A stretch of 64,000 nucleotides of DNA. Source: Thermodesulfobium narugense DSM 14796. Lineage in GTDB: Bacteria > Thermodesulfobiota > Thermodesulfobiia > Thermodesulfobiales > Thermodesulfobiaceae. Numbering within the stretch: position 1 is the stretch's first letter; each line of letters starts with the position of its first letter. Both the position numbers and the translations under genes were made by a program. Below the pieces are notes generated by a model. The model did no database searches, was not told the DNA's origin, and saw only the letters and a list, made by a program, of their open reading frames with translations. This document shows positions 18,557 to 26,315 of the stretch, piece by piece. The stretch covers positions 523,501 through 587,500 of the forward strand of contig NC_015499.1 in NCBI RefSeq assembly GCF_000212395.1. The letters are read 5' to 3'.

Positions 18557-19129
18557 TTGGAAAAGATTGATATTGTAAAAAATAATTTAAAAAGGATTGT
18601 TGAAGAAAAAATTCAAAAAATCCCAATTTACTCCTGGATTGATAATTTTTATGATATATTTACTTCTTGGGATGAATTTTTTGAAATTTTAAAGAAATAT
18701 GATAATAATGTGTCATTTAATGTCAGTGATTTTTCTAATGAAGAGCTTAAGAATATAGAAGAAGAGACTATAAAAATATCAATAGAAGGTTTAAAATATA
18801 GAATTAAAGAAGAAATTGAGAAGGAACTGCAATTAGTTGAGAGGTTTTGGATTATAGTAGACAAAGAAGGTTTTAAATTACCAAGATTTATTGTTTATGA
18901 CGATAGTGGAAAAAACCATAAGGATTTTAACGTTTTTGATTGTCTAAGAGCGTATGGTTTAAAACCCGATGGGGACGAAGTTTGGGAAGAGGTTGCTAGA
19001 TCAATTTTGTACTCTAAAGAGAATAGGGAAGAATGGGATTTAGATCTTTATGCTACTTATCTTGAGGCTGAAGATCAGGGGTTGAACGAAGTTCAAAGTT
19101 GTTCTACAAAATATATGGATATGGTTTAG
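18557..19129 (+). CDS. Hypothetical acidic protein
   Basis: 190 residues, TTG start with GAGGA about 11 bp upstream. I do not recognise a family. It is rich in Glu/Asp/Lys and Trp, with a predicted helical first half (about 60-100) and no signal peptide or membrane segment, so probably a soluble cytosolic protein. It lies between the aldo/keto reductase and the signalling cluster in the same direction, but a 45 bp AT-rich gap before 19175 may hold a promoter. Confidence 0.6.
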   Translation: MEKIDIVKNNLKRIVEEKIQKIPIYSWIDNFYDIFTSWDEFFEILKKYDNNVSFNVSDFSNEELKNIEEETIKISIEGLKYRIKEEIEKELQLVERFWIIVDKEGFKLPRFIVYDDSGKNHKDFNVFDCLRAYGLKPDGDEVWEEVARSILYSKENREEWDLDLYATYLEAEDQGLNEVQSCSTKYMDMV

Positions 19130-19174: not shown

Positions 19175-21400
19175 ATGAGGATTTTTCGTATTTTCTTAAA
19201 TGCTGCCCTTCGCAAAAAGATGGGCATAATGGTTCTTTTAAGCTTTTTTGTCTTCGGATTATTATTGTCTGGTGGTGGGTTAATTCAAATTTATAATTTT
19301 AGTAATGAAATTTTGCTAAATGATATAACAAATACCGCAAGAGGAATTAATTCTTTCCTTGATTCTAAAATTTCTGACACAAAAAAGGCTGCCTTAACTT
19401 TGGCCAGTGATCACGATATAATTTCTGGAGTAAAAAACAAAGACTCTAACTCTTTGTTTGTTTTTATTGAAAAATTTGCTCAGCTTTATCCTGGTTTATA
19501 CGTTGTTGTTACTGATTCTGATGGTAAGGTCTTGGCTAGGAGCGATGCCCCCTCAATATCGAGAAATGATAATATTTCAGAATTACCAGAAATAAAAAGT
19601 GCTCTGGATGGAAAAGTTCAATCTGGAATAGGTTTAGGACGAGTTGTAGGTTTATCGATAAGATCAGGAGCACCAGTTAAAGATGAGAAGGGGAAAATTA
19701 TTGGAACTATTTCAACTGGTTACAGAATAGCAGGGGCGAACGAGATTTCAAATCAGATTAAGAATAATTTTGGTGTTGAGGTGGCTTTTTTCCAGGGTAA
19801 TGAAATGGTTTCTACGTCTATTAAACCCAATGAACTTTCTCAATTTAGTAAATTTTTCAATCCTTCGGTTTTTGGGTCTGTCTTAAAAGAAGGAAAACCA
19901 ATAAATTATGGAGCACCTACTAATATTTCAGAATTATACAGTTTTGCTCAGGAAATATTATTTGGTAAGCCATATTTTGGTTATTATTATCCTCTTAGAG
20001 ATGTAGATGGAAATATTTTGGGCATGTATTTTATTGCTAAGGATACTTCTTTTTATAACAACATGTTAAAGAGATTTACTATAATGCAGTTTGCTTTAAA
20101 CATTACGGCTATTATTATCGGTATAATTTTGTTATTGTTGTCTATGGAATTTTTCTTTATGAGACCGATAGGCTTGCTAGTAAAGGATATTAAAAGAGTT
20201 GCTTCTGGTGATCTTAGTCAACCTCTTAATCCTGTTTTTAACGACGAACTAGGAGTTGTTGTAAGGGCTGTAGAATCAATAAGATCAAACTTTATTAACG
20301 TCATTGGAAAAATTAATTATGCAATTAAAGATCTGGTAAACGCATCTAGCGATCTTATGTCGGTGTCGTCTTCTCTTACGACATCTTCAGGGGATGTTTC
20401 TAAATTATCTGAAATTAATGCCAAAGGTGCCGAAAATTTATCTAATATTGCAACTAAATTAAATGAAGACAAAAACATTTTGCTAAAAGGCATACAGGGT
20501 ATTTCTAAAGGCGTTGAGGATCAGGCAATTGCTGCTTCTAATATTGCTCAAAACATCAATAGAATAGCAAGAAGCATTGAAGATTTTACGAATAAGCTTG
20601 GAGACGTAAGTAATAGCTTGTTGGTAATAGATACAAACGTTAAAGAAATAGAAAAAAATATTTTAGAAAAGAAAAACGCTGTTGGAGCAGTAACAGATAT
20701 AGCTAGAAACATAAACTCAATATCTGATGGTGTGAAAGAAGTTTCTGAGAAAATAAGAATGTCTTTAGTTCCCATTCAAACCATAGCAAATCAGATTCAG
20801 CTCTGGTCATCAAACGCTATAATTGAAACCTCAAAATTAGGCGAACAGGGTAAAGCCTTTGGCGTTATCATAGATGAAATACGCAGTCTTTCTGAAAAGC
20901 TTTTGTACACATCCAATGAAATTTCTAGCAATCTTAACGAACGCCTGTTTAACTCTAATAACTTTGATTTTAATTTTGACAGACATATAGAAGGTGTAGA
21001 AGATCTGGGAAATTACTTTACTGCAATTGAAGACTCTGTTAAAACTTTGAAAGATAACATCAGTAATTTGTACCAAAAATTTGAGAAAATAAAAGACGAA
21101 GCTTTAGGTATAATATCTTCAAAAGACATTAAAAATGTTGAAACAAGCTTGGCCAATCTTGCTGCTTTGGCCGAAGAAGATCTCTCGAACGTTCACGATC
21201 TAAACAGAGCATCTTTAGATGTTCAAAAGGCAATTGAAAATCTTGTACAGGTTTCAAAAGATACCGTGTCATCAACAAAGGATATCTCAGAAAGAGCTGA
21301 GAAACAATTAAATGAGGCGGGTAAATTGGAAGAAGTTTCGAACGATATTAAGATGAAGTCAAACGAGCTTGAAGATGAGGTTAGAAAGTTTAAAATATAG
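19175..21400 (+). CDS. Chemoreceptor-like membrane sensor with degenerate signalling domain
   Basis: 741 residues. Membrane helix about 17-42, extracytoplasmic Cache-like region about 45-300 (LYVVVTDSDGKVLARSDAP and GYYYPLRDVDGNILGMYF are typical), second membrane helix about 303-325, HAMP about 327-380 and a long helical domain. The hairpin tip of methyl-accepting proteins is only partly kept: SNAIIETSKLGEQGKAFGVIIDEIR replaces the usual [24 protein letters not shown] and the preceding tip is altered. CheA/CheW coupling is therefore doubtful. It heads a four-gene run with vWA, PP2C and kinase genes (gaps 18-26 bp), which suggests it signals to those proteins. Confidence 0.8.
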   Translation: MRIFRIFLNAALRKKMGIMVLLSFFVFGLLLSGGGLIQIYNFSNEILLNDITNTARGINSFLDSKISDTKKAALTLASDHDIISGVKNKDSNSLFVFIEKFAQLYPGLYVVVTDSDGKVLARSDAPSISRNDNISELPEIKSALDGKVQSGIGLGRVVGLSIRSGAPVKDEKGKIIGTISTGYRIAGANEISNQIKNNFGVEVAFFQGNEMVSTSIKPNELSQFSKFFNPSVFGSVLKEGKPINYGAPTNISELYSFAQEILFGKPYFGYYYPLRDVDGNILGMYFIAKDTSFYNNMLKRFTIMQFALNITAIIIGIILLLLSMEFFFMRPIGLLVKDIKRVASGDLSQPLNPVFNDELGVVVRAVESIRSNFINVIGKINYAIKDLVNASSDLMSVSSSLTTSSGDVSKLSEINAKGAENLSNIATKLNEDKNILLKGIQGISKGVEDQAIAASNIAQNINRIARSIEDFTNKLGDVSNSLLVIDTNVKEIEKNILEKKNAVGAVTDIARNINSISDGVKEVSEKIRMSLVPIQTIANQIQLWSSNAIIETSKLGEQGKAFGVIIDEIRSLSEKLLYTSNEISSNLNERLFNSNNFDFNFDRHIEGVEDLGNYFTAIEDSVKTLKDNISNLYQKFEKIKDEALGIISSKDIKNVETSLANLAALAEEDLSNVHDLNRASLDVQKAIENLVQVSKDTVSSTKDISERAEKQLNEAGKLEEVSNDIKMKSNELEDEVRKFKI

Positions 21401-21423: not shown

Positions 21424-22740
21424 GTGCTTAAAGTGAATCTTAAGACTCATAGAAAAAGGTTGTTGGCCGATACCAGTGGCCAAAAGCTATTTGTTTTACT
21501 TAGTATTGAAGTTAGTAAAGAAGTTGAGGAGAGAGGAAAACTTTTTGTCTCCTTTGTTCTTGATACATCCGGTTCAATGAGCGAAACAGTAAACGATAAA
21601 TCAAAAATTGAAATTGTTATTGAATCTCTGAAAAAAATTCTTGAATCTAACATTTTAAAAGATGATGACGAAATAAGTATTGTAACTTTCGATGATGAAG
21701 TAAAAATAGTTTTGCCATTTACCGCTGCTACAGAAAAGGAGAAAATATTTTCATCATTTGAACAAATTAGAACTGGTACAGTTGGCACAAACCTAGGTGC
21801 CGGAATGAAGGTTTCATTAGATCTGCTTAAAGATAAAGCCGGAATAAAAAAGATGGTTGTTTTAACGGATGGCAACGTTTTTGATTTGGATTTGGTTGAA
21901 AAAGTCCTTGACGAACTTGTTTTTTCAAATATATCAGTTATATCTGTGGGTGTTGGTGACGAGTGGAATGAAGATTTGTTGTGCAGGATTTCTGATCGGA
22001 CTTTAGGTAAACCTCTTCACCTATGTGACGTTGAAATTGAGTCTGAAAGTTCAAGCAGTATTAATATTAGCAAGTTGCCATATGTTTTTTTAAACGAATT
22101 AGGCCATGCAACACAGGAAGTAGTTATGAATCTTGAGATGGGAATAGAACTAAAAGAAGGTTTTTCTCTTGAAAGGATAACAAAAATCTTTCCCGTTCAG
22201 TATGAGATTATGATAGATAATAAACCTTATTTGTTGGGAAATCTCGAATCAAGAAGAAGAAATGTTTATCTTCTAGAATTTGATGTTCCTTCAATGCCAG
22301 TTTCAAAGGTTGAAATGGGGAAAATTGATCTATACTATCAGATCCCAAATGCCGATATGAAAGAAAAAGTTGGGCCTTTTGAGATTGGAATTGAATTTAC
22401 AAAGGATCAATTGCTAGCAGTTCAAACGGATCAAGAAGTTATGGATTGGGTTCAGCAAAGGAATATTGAGAAAATAGTAAGTGAAGCAATTAGCCAAGCA
22501 CATAAATCGCCCGAAGAAGCAGAAAAAATTTTGGGTTTGGCAAGAAGTCTCACTATAAAATTAAAAAATGACAACCTAACAGCTTTGTTAGATAAGGCAA
22601 TAGAAGAGATACGTGTTAAGAAATATATAGGTTCAAGCGTGGCAAAAACGCTTAAAATAGGCACGAAGACGCAATTATTAGATCACTCTAAAGAGGATAT
22701 GCCTACAGATGATGATATCAGAAAAGCGACAGGAAGATAG
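21424..22740 (+). CDS. von Willebrand factor A domain protein, TerY-like
   Basis: 438 residues. The vWA domain spans about 38-215, with an intact metal-ion adhesion site: DTSGSMS (about 47-53), Thr in GTVGTNLGAG, and LTDGN. A beta-rich middle (about 220-320) and helical C-terminus follow, as in vWA proteins paired with kinases. No signal peptide, so cytosolic. GTG start after AAGGAG. Neighbouring PP2C phosphatase and Ser/Thr kinase match the TerY-P triad (vWA, phosphatase, kinase) described for stress-signalling systems. Confidence 0.82.
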   Translation: MLKVNLKTHRKRLLADTSGQKLFVLLSIEVSKEVEERGKLFVSFVLDTSGSMSETVNDKSKIEIVIESLKKILESNILKDDDEISIVTFDDEVKIVLPFTAATEKEKIFSSFEQIRTGTVGTNLGAGMKVSLDLLKDKAGIKKMVVLTDGNVFDLDLVEKVLDELVFSNISVISVGVGDEWNEDLLCRISDRTLGKPLHLCDVEIESESSSSINISKLPYVFLNELGHATQEVVMNLEMGIELKEGFSLERITKIFPVQYEIMIDNKPYLLGNLESRRRNVYLLEFDVPSMPVSKVEMGKIDLYYQIPNADMKEKVGPFEIGIEFTKDQLLAVQTDQEVMDWVQQRNIEKIVSEAISQAHKSPEEAEKILGLARSLTIKLKNDNLTALLDKAIEEIRVKKYIGSSVAKTLKIGTKTQLLDHSKEDMPTDDDIRKATGR

Positions 22741-22766: not shown

Positions 22767-24209
22767 ATGGATGAGGAAATTATTCAGAGTTTAGACTTTG
22801 AAAAAGTTTTTGATTCTTTTAAAGTTGTTGAATCTTTTGGAGATGGATGGAATAAATGCGAATATAATGGGAAAGTTTTTTTATGTTATAGTGGAGAAAG
22901 GGTCAATGTCTATGAAAAGATATTAAAGATAAAAATTTTCCCAGAAATATTAAGTTCGTTCGGGAACAATATTGTTTGTAAGTTTTATCAGGATAAGAGA
23001 TTAAATCTTCCATTAGCACCTGAGCTATCATTACTTCTTATAAAAGATATATGTGAAGCATCTATTTTTTTAGAAAATCATGGATATATGTTTAAAGAAA
23101 TTAATGTGGACGATATTGTGAAATCAGAAAGTGGTTTTAAGTTCTCAAAGATTCCTACTATTATGAGTTTTTCAGATTTTGAGTTTACAAACAAAGCTTA
23201 TGAAAGAGAAGATTATACGATCAAATTGTTGGGCTCTCTTTTATACGAATTATTAAGTGCAATATCAATAAAAAATGGCTTTGATGTTAAGCTTATTTCT
23301 CGTTATGATATCCCTGGTATTCCTCAGTTTCTATCGCTTGCTCTTCCAGGAAGTAGGGCAAAAATTTCTCTTAAAGATGCTTTTAATATGTTAAATCAAA
23401 TATGTTCTACAATTGAAGTACGTCGTTGTAAATACAATATTGGTTCTGCCTCAACAATTGGCTTGAATGTTTCAAGATCAATTAATGAAGATTCATTTGG
23501 CTACGCTCAAATGTATTTCTATAATCATTTTGGGAAACATAACGTTTTGAAAGCTTGTATAGCCGATGGTATGGGGGGAATGGAGGCAGGAGAAATAGCC
23601 AGCAAAGCTGCTGTGGATGCCTTTTTGACTGAAAGGTTTGAACTAATTGATGATGAAGAACATATAGCTAATCAAACAATTGAACTTGCATGGAAAGCTA
23701 ATAGAGCTGTTTTGGAAAGCCTAAATGGTAAACACGGTGGCTGTACTTTTAGTGGTATTTTTATTTATGATGATAAGCTCTTTATTGCACATGTTGGTGA
23801 TACAAGAATTTATTTATACAAGGATAAAAAATTTGAAAGGTTAACAAACGATCACTCTTTGGTTGAAACGTTGATTTTAGGTGGAATAATGACGAGAGAA
23901 GAAGCCCTTAATAGCCCTGATAGAAACAAACTTTTAAGGTCTATGGGATTTATAATAGATAAGCAAGAAAACTATATCGAAGGTCTGTTTCAAAAATTTG
24001 AAAAATACTTTATTCAATTGACTAAAGGAGATTTAATCTTAATGGTAAGTGATGGAGTTTGGGGTGAATTGCCAGACGATGAGATGTTTTCTGTTGTAAA
24101 CTCTTTATCGAATAGACCAGATGATCTGGTAAGTGAATTAATTTCAATAGCTTTAAAAAGGGGGGCGCCTGACAATGCGACAGCGGTTGCTATTTATAAA
24201 GAATTTTAA
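22767..24209 (+). CDS. PP2C-type Ser/Thr phosphatase with kinase-like N-terminal domain
   Basis: 480 residues. The C-terminal half (about 228-480) is a full PP2C: RSINEDSFG, IADGMGGMEAGEIAS, FIAHVGDTRIYLY, LMVSDGVWGE and GAPDNATAVA keep the metal-binding aspartates. The N-terminal 220 residues look like a degenerate protein-kinase fold: the place of the HRD loop reads MFKEINVDDIV and that of DFG reads IPTIMSF, so it should be inactive. It may act as a regulatory pseudokinase. It lies between the vWA and kinase genes and probably removes phosphates added by the latter. The pseudokinase reading is inference; the phosphatase is clear. Confidence 0.85.
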   Translation: MDEEIIQSLDFEKVFDSFKVVESFGDGWNKCEYNGKVFLCYSGERVNVYEKILKIKIFPEILSSFGNNIVCKFYQDKRLNLPLAPELSLLLIKDICEASIFLENHGYMFKEINVDDIVKSESGFKFSKIPTIMSFSDFEFTNKAYEREDYTIKLLGSLLYELLSAISIKNGFDVKLISRYDIPGIPQFLSLALPGSRAKISLKDAFNMLNQICSTIEVRRCKYNIGSASTIGLNVSRSINEDSFGYAQMYFYNHFGKHNVLKACIADGMGGMEAGEIASKAAVDAFLTERFELIDDEEHIANQTIELAWKANRAVLESLNGKHGGCTFSGIFIYDDKLFIAHVGDTRIYLYKDKKFERLTNDHSLVETLILGGIMTREEALNSPDRNKLLRSMGFIIDKQENYIEGLFQKFEKYFIQLTKGDLILMVSDGVWGELPDDEMFSVVNSLSNRPDDLVSELISIALKRGAPDNATAVAIYKEF

Positions 24210-24227: not shown

Positions 24228-25976
24228 ATGATTTTTTGTAGAGTTTGTGGGTATGGTCCAATATCAGAAGAGGTAAAAGTTTGCCCGGTATGTGGTACCT
24301 CAGTTGTTGATAAAGCTTTTTCTGGGACTAGAACTCTTTCAATAATGGCACTAGCTTCTGGAACTCTTCTTCAAAATGGAAAGTACAGAATTGAAGACGT
24401 AATTATCCAAGGTGGATTCTCTTTTACTTATTCAGCAATACAAACTATGCTTGATGCAAAGGTAGCGATAAAAGAGTTATTTGCGCTGGGAGCTACAAGA
24501 CAGGGTAGCGTTGTTATATTTGATTCAGATTCCTCTGAAAGTATTGGTGAATTTCTAAATGAGGGAAGAATTCTTGCAAGGTTAAATCATCCTGGAATTG
24601 TAAAAGTTCTTGATTTTTTTGAAGAAAATAATACTGCATATCTTGTAATGGAATTTCTTGATGGTGAATCTTTGTCTTTATTGTTAAATAGGGTTGGAAA
24701 AATACCTGAAAATGAAGCTCTTAATTATATTAAGCAAGTTGCTCAGGCCCTAAAAGTTGTTCATGATGCAGGATTACTTCATCAGGATGTAAAACCAGAT
24801 AACTTAATTTTGACAAAGGAAGGTCGAATTGTAATTGTTGATTTTGGTTCGGCCAGACAATTTATTGCAGAGAAAACAGGCAATTATGATAGGATTGTTA
24901 CTCCTGGATTTGCGCCTCTTGAACAATACGGTCAGAGAGTAAGAAGAGGCCCTTATACAGATGTATATTCCCTTTGCGCTAATTTTTATACATTAATTAA
25001 AGGTTTTCCCCCACCACCTGCCCCAGATAGATTGCAAACTTTGAGAGAATTAGATTTATCAGGTGTAAATCCAAAAATTGCGAGGATTATTTCAAAAGGT
25101 CTTGAGGTTAATGTAAATAATAGAATTAGATCAATGGATGAACTTTTGGCAATGATTGATGAGATAGAAAGCAAAAGTTCTGTGGTAGACAGAACTATTT
25201 CTAGAGAAGTGCTGCAAAGAGAAGAAGACGTTAGCTTTGATGATAGAAAGCTTTTTTCAAATAATGAAAATGTATTTTCTCAGGAAGAAGTACTTGATAT
25301 TGATATTTTGGAGATTGAAAATCAAGAAGATCCGAAAGTGCTTTTTGAAATTGGTTTAAAGTATTTACTAGGTTTTGGTGTAACAAGAAATTTTGATATT
25401 GCTTTTAAATGTTTTAGAGAGGCTTCTGGGAAAGGAAATGTTGAAGCATTATATAGGTTGGGACTTATGTATCTTCACGGGCAAGGAACATATCAAGACG
25501 ACAAAATGGCCTTCAAATACTTCAAAGACGCTTCAGAAAAAGGAAATGCTGATGCAATGTATAGATTGGGTTGGATGTATGAATATGGTAGAGGTACATC
25601 ACAAGACGACAAAATGGCCTTCAAATACTTCAAAGACGCTTCAGAAAAAGGAAATGCTGATGCAATGTATCACTTGGGACTTATGTATCTTCACGGGCAA
25701 GGAACATATCAAGACGACAAAATGGCCTTCAAATACTTCAAAGACGCTTCAGAAAAAGGAAATGCTGATGCAATGTATAGATTGGGTTGGATGTATGAAT
25801 ATGGTAGAGGTACATCACAAGACGACAAAATGGCAAAATATTGGTATGAGAAGTCAAAAGATTTAGGGAATATTGATTCCAAAAACAAGCTTGAAAGTTT
25901 TTTGCCTGGTATTAACTCTAAAAAAAATAAGGGTAGCTTTTTTGGAAGAATTTTCAAAAATATTTTTGGTAGTTAA
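24228..25976 (+). CDS. Ser/Thr protein kinase with N-terminal zinc ribbon and C-terminal Sel1 repeats
   Basis: 582 residues. Zinc ribbon at 1-25 (C4-RV-C7 and C19-PV-C22). Kinase domain about 50-310: Lys in VAIKELF, catalytic loop LLHQDVKPDNLIL (HQD for HRD), metal motif IVDFGSA, and GFAPLEQYG of the PknB-like activation segment. The Gly-loop is weak (QGGFSFTYS). After a linker come five Sel1-like repeats (about 375-555), four nearly identical, which usually bind partner proteins. No membrane segment, unlike many bacterial kinases of this class. Last gene of the signalling run. Confidence 0.88.
   Translation: MIFCRVCGYGPISEEVKVCPVCGTSVVDKAFSGTRTLSIMALASGTLLQNGKYRIEDVIIQGGFSFTYSAIQTMLDAKVAIKELFALGATRQGSVVIFDSDSSESIGEFLNEGRILARLNHPGIVKVLDFFEENNTAYLVMEFLDGESLSLLLNRVGKIPENEALNYIKQVAQALKVVHDAGLLHQDVKPDNLILTKEGRIVIVDFGSARQFIAEKTGNYDRIVTPGFAPLEQYGQRVRRGPYTDVYSLCANFYTLIKGFPPPPAPDRLQTLRELDLSGVNPKIARIISKGLEVNVNNRIRSMDELLAMIDEIESKSSVVDRTISREVLQREEDVSFDDRKLFSNNENVFSQEEVLDIDILEIENQEDPKVLFEIGLKYLLGFGVTRNFDIAFKCFREASGKGNVEALYRLGLMYLHGQGTYQDDKMAFKYFKDASEKGNADAMYRLGWMYEYGRGTSQDDKMAFKYFKDASEKGNADAMYHLGLMYLHGQGTYQDDKMAFKYFKDASEKGNADAMYRLGWMYEYGRGTSQDDKMAKYWYEKSKDLGNIDSKNKLESFLPGINSKKNKGSFFGRIFKNIFGS
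25458..25835 (+). repeat. 216-bp tandem DNA repeat encoding paired Sel1 repeats
   Basis: The segment starting at 25458 (TTGGGACTTATG) recurs at 25674, 216 bp on, almost base for base through about 25835. Each unit encodes two 36-residue Sel1 repeats, one with LMYLHGQGTYQDD and one with WMYEYGRGTSQDD. Near identity at silent sites indicates recent duplication or gene conversion. Confidence 0.9.
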
Positions 25977-26034: not shown

Positions 26035-26290
26035 TTAGTGTTTTGAAAATTTAATAGAGTTAAAGGCTATGAACAGGAGTAGTAGAAAGCTTAACTTTCT
26101 AAGAGAGCCGAAGGTTGGTGCGATTCGGTAAAGGGCGCTTTCGAACTCGCCTGGGAGCTTTTCTGGTGAAATTAAGTAATCAGAAACGTAAGACTGCGTT
26201 AAAGTTTAGAGTGAACCATCCTTTGGATGGTTAATCGTGGTGGTACCGCGGAACCTCCCTCCGTCCTCGTGATGTGAGGGTTTTTTTTTA
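26035..26290 (+). ncRNA. T-box riboswitch (probably leucine tRNA) with terminator
   Basis: Stem I features AGTAGTA, AGAGAGCC and GGTTGGTG are followed by GAA-CTC-GCC, where CTC (26146-26148) sits at the expected specifier position and would read tRNA-Leu. The T-box core GGTGGTACCGCGG lies at 26239-26251. A CCCTC/GAGGG terminator stem with nine Ts ends at 26289. Uncharged tRNA would bind and allow read-through into ilvB. The specifier assignment is by alignment from memory. Confidence 0.88.
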
Positions 26291-26315
26291 AAAATTTTTG
26301 GAAGGAGGGATATTT

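Follow-up and report, generated by a model that had tools for sequence, protein, structure and literature searches.

The window (the whole stretch of DNA analysed, 64,000 nucleotides) belongs to a genome consisting of a single contig of 1,898,865 bases. A tight run of four genes lies on its + strand and encodes a receptor, a VWA-domain protein, a fusion of a kinase-like domain with a PP2C phosphatase, and a Ser/Thr kinase. The intergenic gaps measure 18-26 bases, and a purine-rich sequence precedes each start codon. The features of the locus are listed below in window coordinates.

18557-19129, + strand: 190-aa protein that matches nothing in Pfam, with conservation at two congeneric loci
19175-21400, + strand: Cache-HAMP-MCP-like receptor, first gene of the run
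21424-22740, + strand: VWA-domain protein, ending 26 bases upstream of the fusion gene
22767-24209, + strand: pseudokinase-PP2C fusion gene, open reading frame of 480 aa with full-length relatives
22818-23417, + strand: degenerate kinase-like domain, residues about 18-217, placed by profiles and alignment, with a low-confidence model
23451-24206, + strand: PP2C catalytic domain, residues about 229-480, with D242, D267, D345, D429 and D469 present
24228-25976, + strand: partner kinase, Ser/Thr, with a zinc-ribbon-like N-terminus (below the Pfam cut-off), a kinase domain and Sel1 repeats

The fusion gene is a complete reading frame with exactly the boundaries given in the original prediction, which had described a pseudokinase joined to an intact PP2C phosphatase. 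Residues about 18-217 of its product appear to form a probable N-lobe remnant followed by a C-lobe devoid of the HRD, DFG and APE motifs. The partner kinase looks intact by its motifs, with the beta-3 Lys, HQD and DFG all present. The Sel1 repeats of the partner kinase (window 25431-25834) are near-identical in DNA, with a 216-base unit at 96% match, which suggests that the repeat units arose by recent duplication or conversion; repeats arranged in the same way are seen in two congeneric genes. The 190-aa protein possibly belongs to the same operon-like unit as the fusion. Genes at window 16-32 kb, most of them named by eye, seem to be of ribosomal-protein, aldo/keto-reductase, MCP-like and branched-chain amino-acid types. 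A T-box leader (window 26060-26271, + strand; Rfam RF00230, 157.7 bits) precedes a gene at 26298 that resembles acetolactate synthase by eye.

The inventory of kinases and phosphatases in the genome covers the families PF00069, PF13672 and PF07228, and other or diverged kinases and phosphatases could escape it. It returned one Pkinase (PF00069) match, the neighbouring kinase; one PP2C_2 (PF13672) match, the fusion gene; and a weak SpoIIE (PF07228) match to the fusion gene only. Searches of the same genome for FHA, TerD and the type VI secretion component VipA/TssB gave no match.

Relatives and conserved gene neighbourhood

The fusion is present in all four genomes of the genus that were searched, and the full-length homologues in the other three share 89%, 78% and 78% identity with the window protein. 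A further full-length homologue, with 33% identity, is found in the genome G014. When 193 genomes around G014 were searched with a profile, relatives matching both halves turned up in 10 genomes of a distant family (f12) and, in one more of its genomes, a PP2C fragment at a contig edge; among the f12 genomes listed, 11 of 30 thus carry a match. In a search of 146 genomes from a third phylum, that of G079 (by its look, as a guess, cyanobacterial), 21 had matches with E of 1e-40 or lower; by N-terminal sequence 11 of these make up the A set and the other 10 the B set (group B). Viral contigs yielded no relatives with the first query, and the eight loci found there by profile search, which match around the PP2C part only, were left unused.

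Gene neighbourhoods were compared at 25 loci (4 from the genus, 11 from f12 and 10 from the A set). L004, which is the same contig as L031, is uncounted, and L042 (f12) and L071 (A set) stand outside the sample. Neighbours were called by similarity to seeds among ORFs of at least 80 aa, a procedure that can miss diverged genes, and some of the contigs end early. A kinase gene lies directly downstream of the fusion, on the same strand and within 0.4 kb, at 23 of the 25 loci; as to the two exceptions, no kinase was found near L109, and the kinase of L111 lies about 1.6 kb on. A VWA gene is found upstream of the fusion at 22 of the 25 loci and an FHA gene directly upstream at 16, distributed as 0/4 in the genus, 9/11 in f12 and 7/10 in the A set. 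The order of genes from VWA to kinase is the same at all four genus loci, and among the loci examined the MCP-like receptor occurs in this genus only. In group B, where seven of the ten loci were extended, the kinase gene lies directly upstream of the fusion in all seven and an FHA gene downstream in five.

The partner kinases retain the beta-3 Lys, the HRD Asp and DFG in each of the nine sequences aligned. At a threshold of 1e-10 one kinase match was found in G041 and two in G056, a genome with two fusions, each adjoining a kinase. G014 has zero kinase matches at this threshold, probably on account of a contig end cutting the gene.

Kinase ancestry and active-site residues of the fusion

Taken alone, the window protein gives no kinase match for its N-terminal half in Pfam, NCBIfam or PADLOC scans. 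The kinase-like pattern that the original prediction saw in the N-terminal 220 residues is therefore insecure from this single sequence, and it was recovered, for the larger part of the domain corresponding to the C-lobe, only through profiles of relatives. A match to the Tospovirus nucleocapsid (E 0.07 with the whole protein, 0.016 with the N-terminal half) fell under the cut-off and was taken as chance.

The N-domain of the window protein aligns with that of L005 from G014 at E 6e-7 over 217 columns. A profile of 14 N-domains from the genus and f12, the window included (alignment A5), finds titin kinase among PDB sequences at E 2.5e-5. Of its 133 matches up to E 1, the best 60 comprise 58 entries named as kinases or titin/twitchin, one nameless entry and, at rank 4 with E 0.001, a designed TIM barrel. 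Addition of ten A-set rows (alignment A7, 24 sequences, with L063 omitted because it starts late) brings STK17B to the top at 5.4e-8, followed by titin and, lower down, PknB; 59 of the best 60 of 493 matches are then named kinases or titin/twitchin. The PDB matches span chiefly the C-lobe half of the kinase fold, and the first ~80 residues, read off alignment A7 alone, would represent the N-lobe.

Comparisons of profiles by hhalign connect the different sets of fusions with one another. The genus and f12 N-domains align with the A set (A5 against A9) at 90% and 1.6e-6 and with group B at 71% and 3.8e-5, and the A set aligns with group B (A9 against A8) at 97% and 4.2e-11. All 24 N-domains together align with the partner kinases at 94.6% and 7.2e-8. 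Speaking against a kinase descent, smaller profiles match the partner-kinase profile only weakly (11.6%, E 0.0026; for the A set alone, 10.3%, E 0.0031). Two group B fusions that were scanned exceed the Pfam Pkinase cut-off, at 4.8e-26 and 1.5e-28. Judged by these profiles, descent of the N-terminal half from a protein kinase, mainly from its C-lobe part, is well supported.

Structure prediction, which had been proposed as a check along with the original prediction, speaks neither for nor against a kinase fold. The AlphaFold model from a two-sequence input (the window protein and L031) is of low confidence, with a mean pLDDT of 39.4 and a pTM of 0.25. Its elements run as three strands, helices, a long helix, two short strands, a second long helix and small helices, an order that would fit a reduced kinase. 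A Foldseek search with this model gave a best E of 0.059, which is not significant, at a TM of about 0.2; kinases account for 44 of the best 50 of 377 matches. A poor model and the lack of a significant Pfam match could be cited in favour of the N-terminal half being some other alpha-beta domain that resembles kinases by chance. However, almost all of the profile matches listed are kinases, the Glu of the APE motif is present in all 20 f12 and A-set rows (as read from alignment slices), and the parallel fusions of group B carry clear kinase domains, which leaves a chance resemblance very improbable.

Active-site columns were read by alignment in 4 genus, 10 f12 and 10 A-set rows, and the exact columns carry some error. 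The position of the beta-3 Lys is occupied by Tyr in all four genus rows and in nine of the ten f12 rows (Ala in the tenth), and by Arg in all ten of the A set. At the position of the HRD Asp the window protein has E and the three congeneric rows have N, E and D (the last in L031); Tyr is found there in 10/10 f12 rows, and Asp is kept in two of the ten A-set rows. The DFG Asp is replaced by Lys in 4/4 genus rows, the window protein reading K-I-P, and by Ile or Leu in 10/10 f12 rows, and it is present in 10/10 rows of the A set. The APE segment appears to be deleted in the genus. In group B the beta-3 Lys and the HRD Asp are invariant (10/10), TGF replaces DFG, and a glycine loop is absent by eye. 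As aligned, the domain in the window's protein is the most eroded extreme of a graded series, with group B less eroded. The absence of the HRD and DFG catalytic residues, claimed in the original prediction, is thereby borne out in the window protein and extends to the beta-3 Lys. The N-domain of the window protein shares 20-28% identity with the f12 rows, against 40-43% for the PP2C domain, and such faster divergence is expected of a non-catalytic part.

Losses of this type argue against ordinary kinase activity. Relatives may still bind nucleotides or other ligands, given that the A set keeps the DFG Asp and group B the beta-3 Lys and the HRD Asp. These retained parts of the site speak for a reading of the pseudokinase as a lid, allosteric or nucleotide-sensing, that binds ATP or another ligand without phosphotransfer and switches the PP2C on or off, with no docking involved. 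Models have proposed unusual ATP binding in other bacterial pseudokinases, as described in part of the source (PMC12599244). In the window protein and in f12, though, the beta-3 Lys, the HRD Asp and the DFG Asp are all replaced and a canonical nucleotide site is unlikely, and we regard such a lid as an unlikely account of the domain.

The phosphatase half shows the opposite condition. The fusion protein matches Pfam PP2C at 5.8e-15 and NCBIfam Stp1/IreP at 4.6e-45, yet the latter score lies under the cut-off of the model. In bits, the scores against the curated NCBIfam cut-offs are 65.4 of 374 for NF011149 (PRK14559) and 153.9 of 230 for NF033484, both too low. Solved bacterial PP2Cs match in the PDB sequence search, down to 2.9e-21. 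Eleven checked positions of the RxxNED, DG, GD, DH, SDG and DN motifs are identical in 15/15 aligned sequences, the window included, and the metal-binding Asp residues and the PP2C/PPM motif order can be recognised in the window protein. The PP2C of the fusion is accordingly predicted by its residues, and expected by us, to be enzymatically active. Three f12 fusions (L039, L040 and L041) bear asparagine-rich low-complexity inserts within the PP2C domain, close to its end. With the profile searches and the counts of catalytic residues, the description of the protein as a pseudokinase fused to an intact PP2C holds for both of its halves.

Descent of the fusions and proposed role

In the kinase tree the partner kinases of the genus, f12 and the A set form one group of 26 rows (100/99), which includes the outside kinase L137 and three rows that are second copies of partner kinases; an extra kinase of L110, labelled partner, falls outside the group. 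The fusion PP2Cs of the same three sets also form one group, of 24 rows (100/99) and apart from 37 other PP2Cs, in a tree whose bootstrap is not fully settled. By these groupings the genes of the module seem to have moved together. The group B PP2Cs are placed elsewhere in the PP2C tree, subject to the same unsettled bootstrap, but under an AU test one common origin of the fusions is not rejected (p 0.209). Group B is a second, less eroded set of fusions beside another kinase gene, perhaps of separate origin. Its pseudokinases form a long separate branch in the kinase tree (1.56) and the neighbouring kinases another group; recent duplication of the neighbour kinase as the source of these pseudokinases is not supported by this tree.

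Group B is the only set treed together with kinases, and as its pseudokinases are no recent copies of the neighbours, a shared substrate surface cannot be assumed. This matters for the idea advanced in the original prediction, namely that the pseudokinase bears a kinase-type substrate-recognition surface by which both enzymes would recognise the same substrates. The kinase neighbour conserved at 23/25 loci and the fast divergence of the N-domain speak for that idea, and the genome's single Pkinase match and single PP2C match are compatible with it; docking on the kinase itself fits the conservation of neighbours equally well. The APE segment is part of the substrate-binding face of a kinase, and the window's domain seems to be without it. 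Together with the long branch of the group B pseudokinases, apart from their neighbours, this makes a shared recognition surface quite unlikely.

The reading that we favour, with moderate confidence, sees the fusion as a PP2C Ser/Thr phosphatase with a dead, eroded kinase domain, which works with the VWA protein and the one Hanks-type kinase found, all encoded in the same operon-like run, in a closed phosphorylation switch where the pseudokinase docks. It builds on what the computations show: the N-terminal half descends from a kinase and has lost its catalytic residues, those of the PP2C are intact, gene order is conserved, and the genome gives a single Pkinase and a single PP2C match. Because the only Pkinase match and the only PP2C match lie in one operon-like run, the pair would form a closed switch, and little cross-talk is expected with a single kinase and a single PP2C found in the families searched. 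The conserved-neighbour counts indicate that the kinase, the fusion and their neighbours belong together; docking is what we infer beyond them.

In this switch the partner kinase would write phosphate on itself, on the VWA protein or on a shared substrate, and the PP2C of the fusion would remove it. The pseudokinase would transfer no phosphate; it would dock on the active kinase, or on a scaffold or substrate of that kinase (the VWA protein or, in relatives, the FHA protein), and so place the phosphatase where the kinase phosphorylates. It may also gate the activity of the PP2C. The adjacency of the fusion gene to the only matching kinase found suggests that the dead domain ties the opposing kinase and phosphatase together. 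As the weakest step, the upstream MCP-like receptor may feed a signal into the switch in the window's genus, signalling to the kinase rather than serving chemotaxis. It is also possible that the receptor is a plain chemotaxis gene, the genome having two CheW-domain matches, both away from the receptor-VWA-fusion-kinase run.

A further candidate was noted by eye in L048 (genome G092), where an ORF from position 508 encodes a 603-aa PP2C protein that contains zinc-ribbon-like stretches and a portion similar to an eroded C-lobe of a kinase, and adjoins an intact-looking zinc-ribbon kinase. It is possibly another independent pseudokinase-PP2C fusion, and the attachment of dead kinase domains to PP2Cs beside live kinases may be recurrent. 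A more tentative and rather doubtful picture extends this point: fusions would have arisen more than once beside an active kinase, the dead domain being a ready-made adaptor that pairs with the live kinase to give a self-limiting signalling machine, whose simplest form would be the single kinase and single PP2C of the window's genome.

Comparison with known kinase-phosphatase systems

The TerY-P triad takes its name from its association with Ter genes. Its VWA, PP2C and Ser/Thr kinase genes stand side by side, as described in parts of two sources (PMC4978471, PMC7699616), and resemble the cluster studied here. The window's PP2C, in contrast, carries a pseudokinase, the VWA protein shows generic VWA matches only, and the neighbouring genes do not look like DNA-processing or defence types. 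Assignment to TerY-P was rejected on the grounds of the missing TerD match and of neighbours without a defence look. The likeness raises the question of whether the whole cluster, like TerY-P, serves in defence against phages or stress, a reading that is compatible with docking. The three enzyme types are those of TerY-P, which is reported to act against T7-like phages (PMC7699616, in part), the partner kinase matches PADLOC kinase models (PD-T4-6 at 7.2e-49, mad6 at 2e-47), and the PP2C matches one PADLOC candidate model (PDC-M21C, 5.5e-6). The kinase matches, however, are spread over 35 families and seem to reflect general similarity among kinases, PADLOC gave nothing for the VWA protein, TerD is missing from the genome matches, the order from VWA to kinase is constant in the genus (4/4 loci), and the neighbours look housekeeping. 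A defence function is improbable on this evidence.

A zinc-ribbon kinase, a PP2C and a standalone vWA protein form a theme beside GAP1-N2 systems in actinobacteria (PMC7159879), and this parts list resembles that of the window; the description, in the part of the paper available, has no pseudokinase on the PP2C. The threonine phosphorylation pathway of type VI secretion (PMC5995506, PMC3224232, each in part) likewise combines a kinase (PpkA), a PP2C (PppA) and Fha as one switch, and relatives of the window's cluster have FHA. Filing under this pathway was rejected, as the genome has no VipA/TssB and no FHA match. The kinase-kinase-phosphatase system KKP is a cluster of Ser/Thr kinase and phosphatase genes and includes an FHA domain. 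Its two kinases, as part of the source describes them, have divergent C-terminal domains, and their HRD and DFG motifs matter for toxicity (PMC11341870), whereas the window has a single kinase, and its pseudokinase is part of the PP2C protein. This filing, too, was rejected, since the genome gave a single Pkinase match.

Composite proteins of Pseudomonas and Deinococcus that unite PP2C and kinase domains in a single chain were reported in 2005 (PMC1262709). In those proteins, so far as the available part of the report describes them, the PP2C is N-terminal and the protein is described as a kinase; in the window's protein the kinase-like part is N-terminal and lacks the catalytic residues. The bacterial Ser/Thr pseudokinase families ActPs1-3, GLW, CP1, DYD and DLHK are likewise kinase-like domains with degraded motifs (PMC12599244, in part). 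The main text of that paper, in its available part, does not refer to PP2C, 'phosphatase' occurring in the reference list only, and the domains linked to CP1 and DLHK are other than PP2C. No bacterial pseudokinase-PP2C fusion of this kind was found in open-access titles and the beginnings of abstracts. The window's cluster is a conserved variant of the kinase-phosphatase-VWA module, with the pseudokinase on the PP2C as its new element. Experiments on bacterial Ser/Thr pseudokinases are largely lacking, according to part of a recent source (PMC12599244), and a conserved family in which a pseudokinase is covalently joined to a phosphatase, beside an intact-looking kinase, offers a two-protein system for probing the function of a dead kinase.
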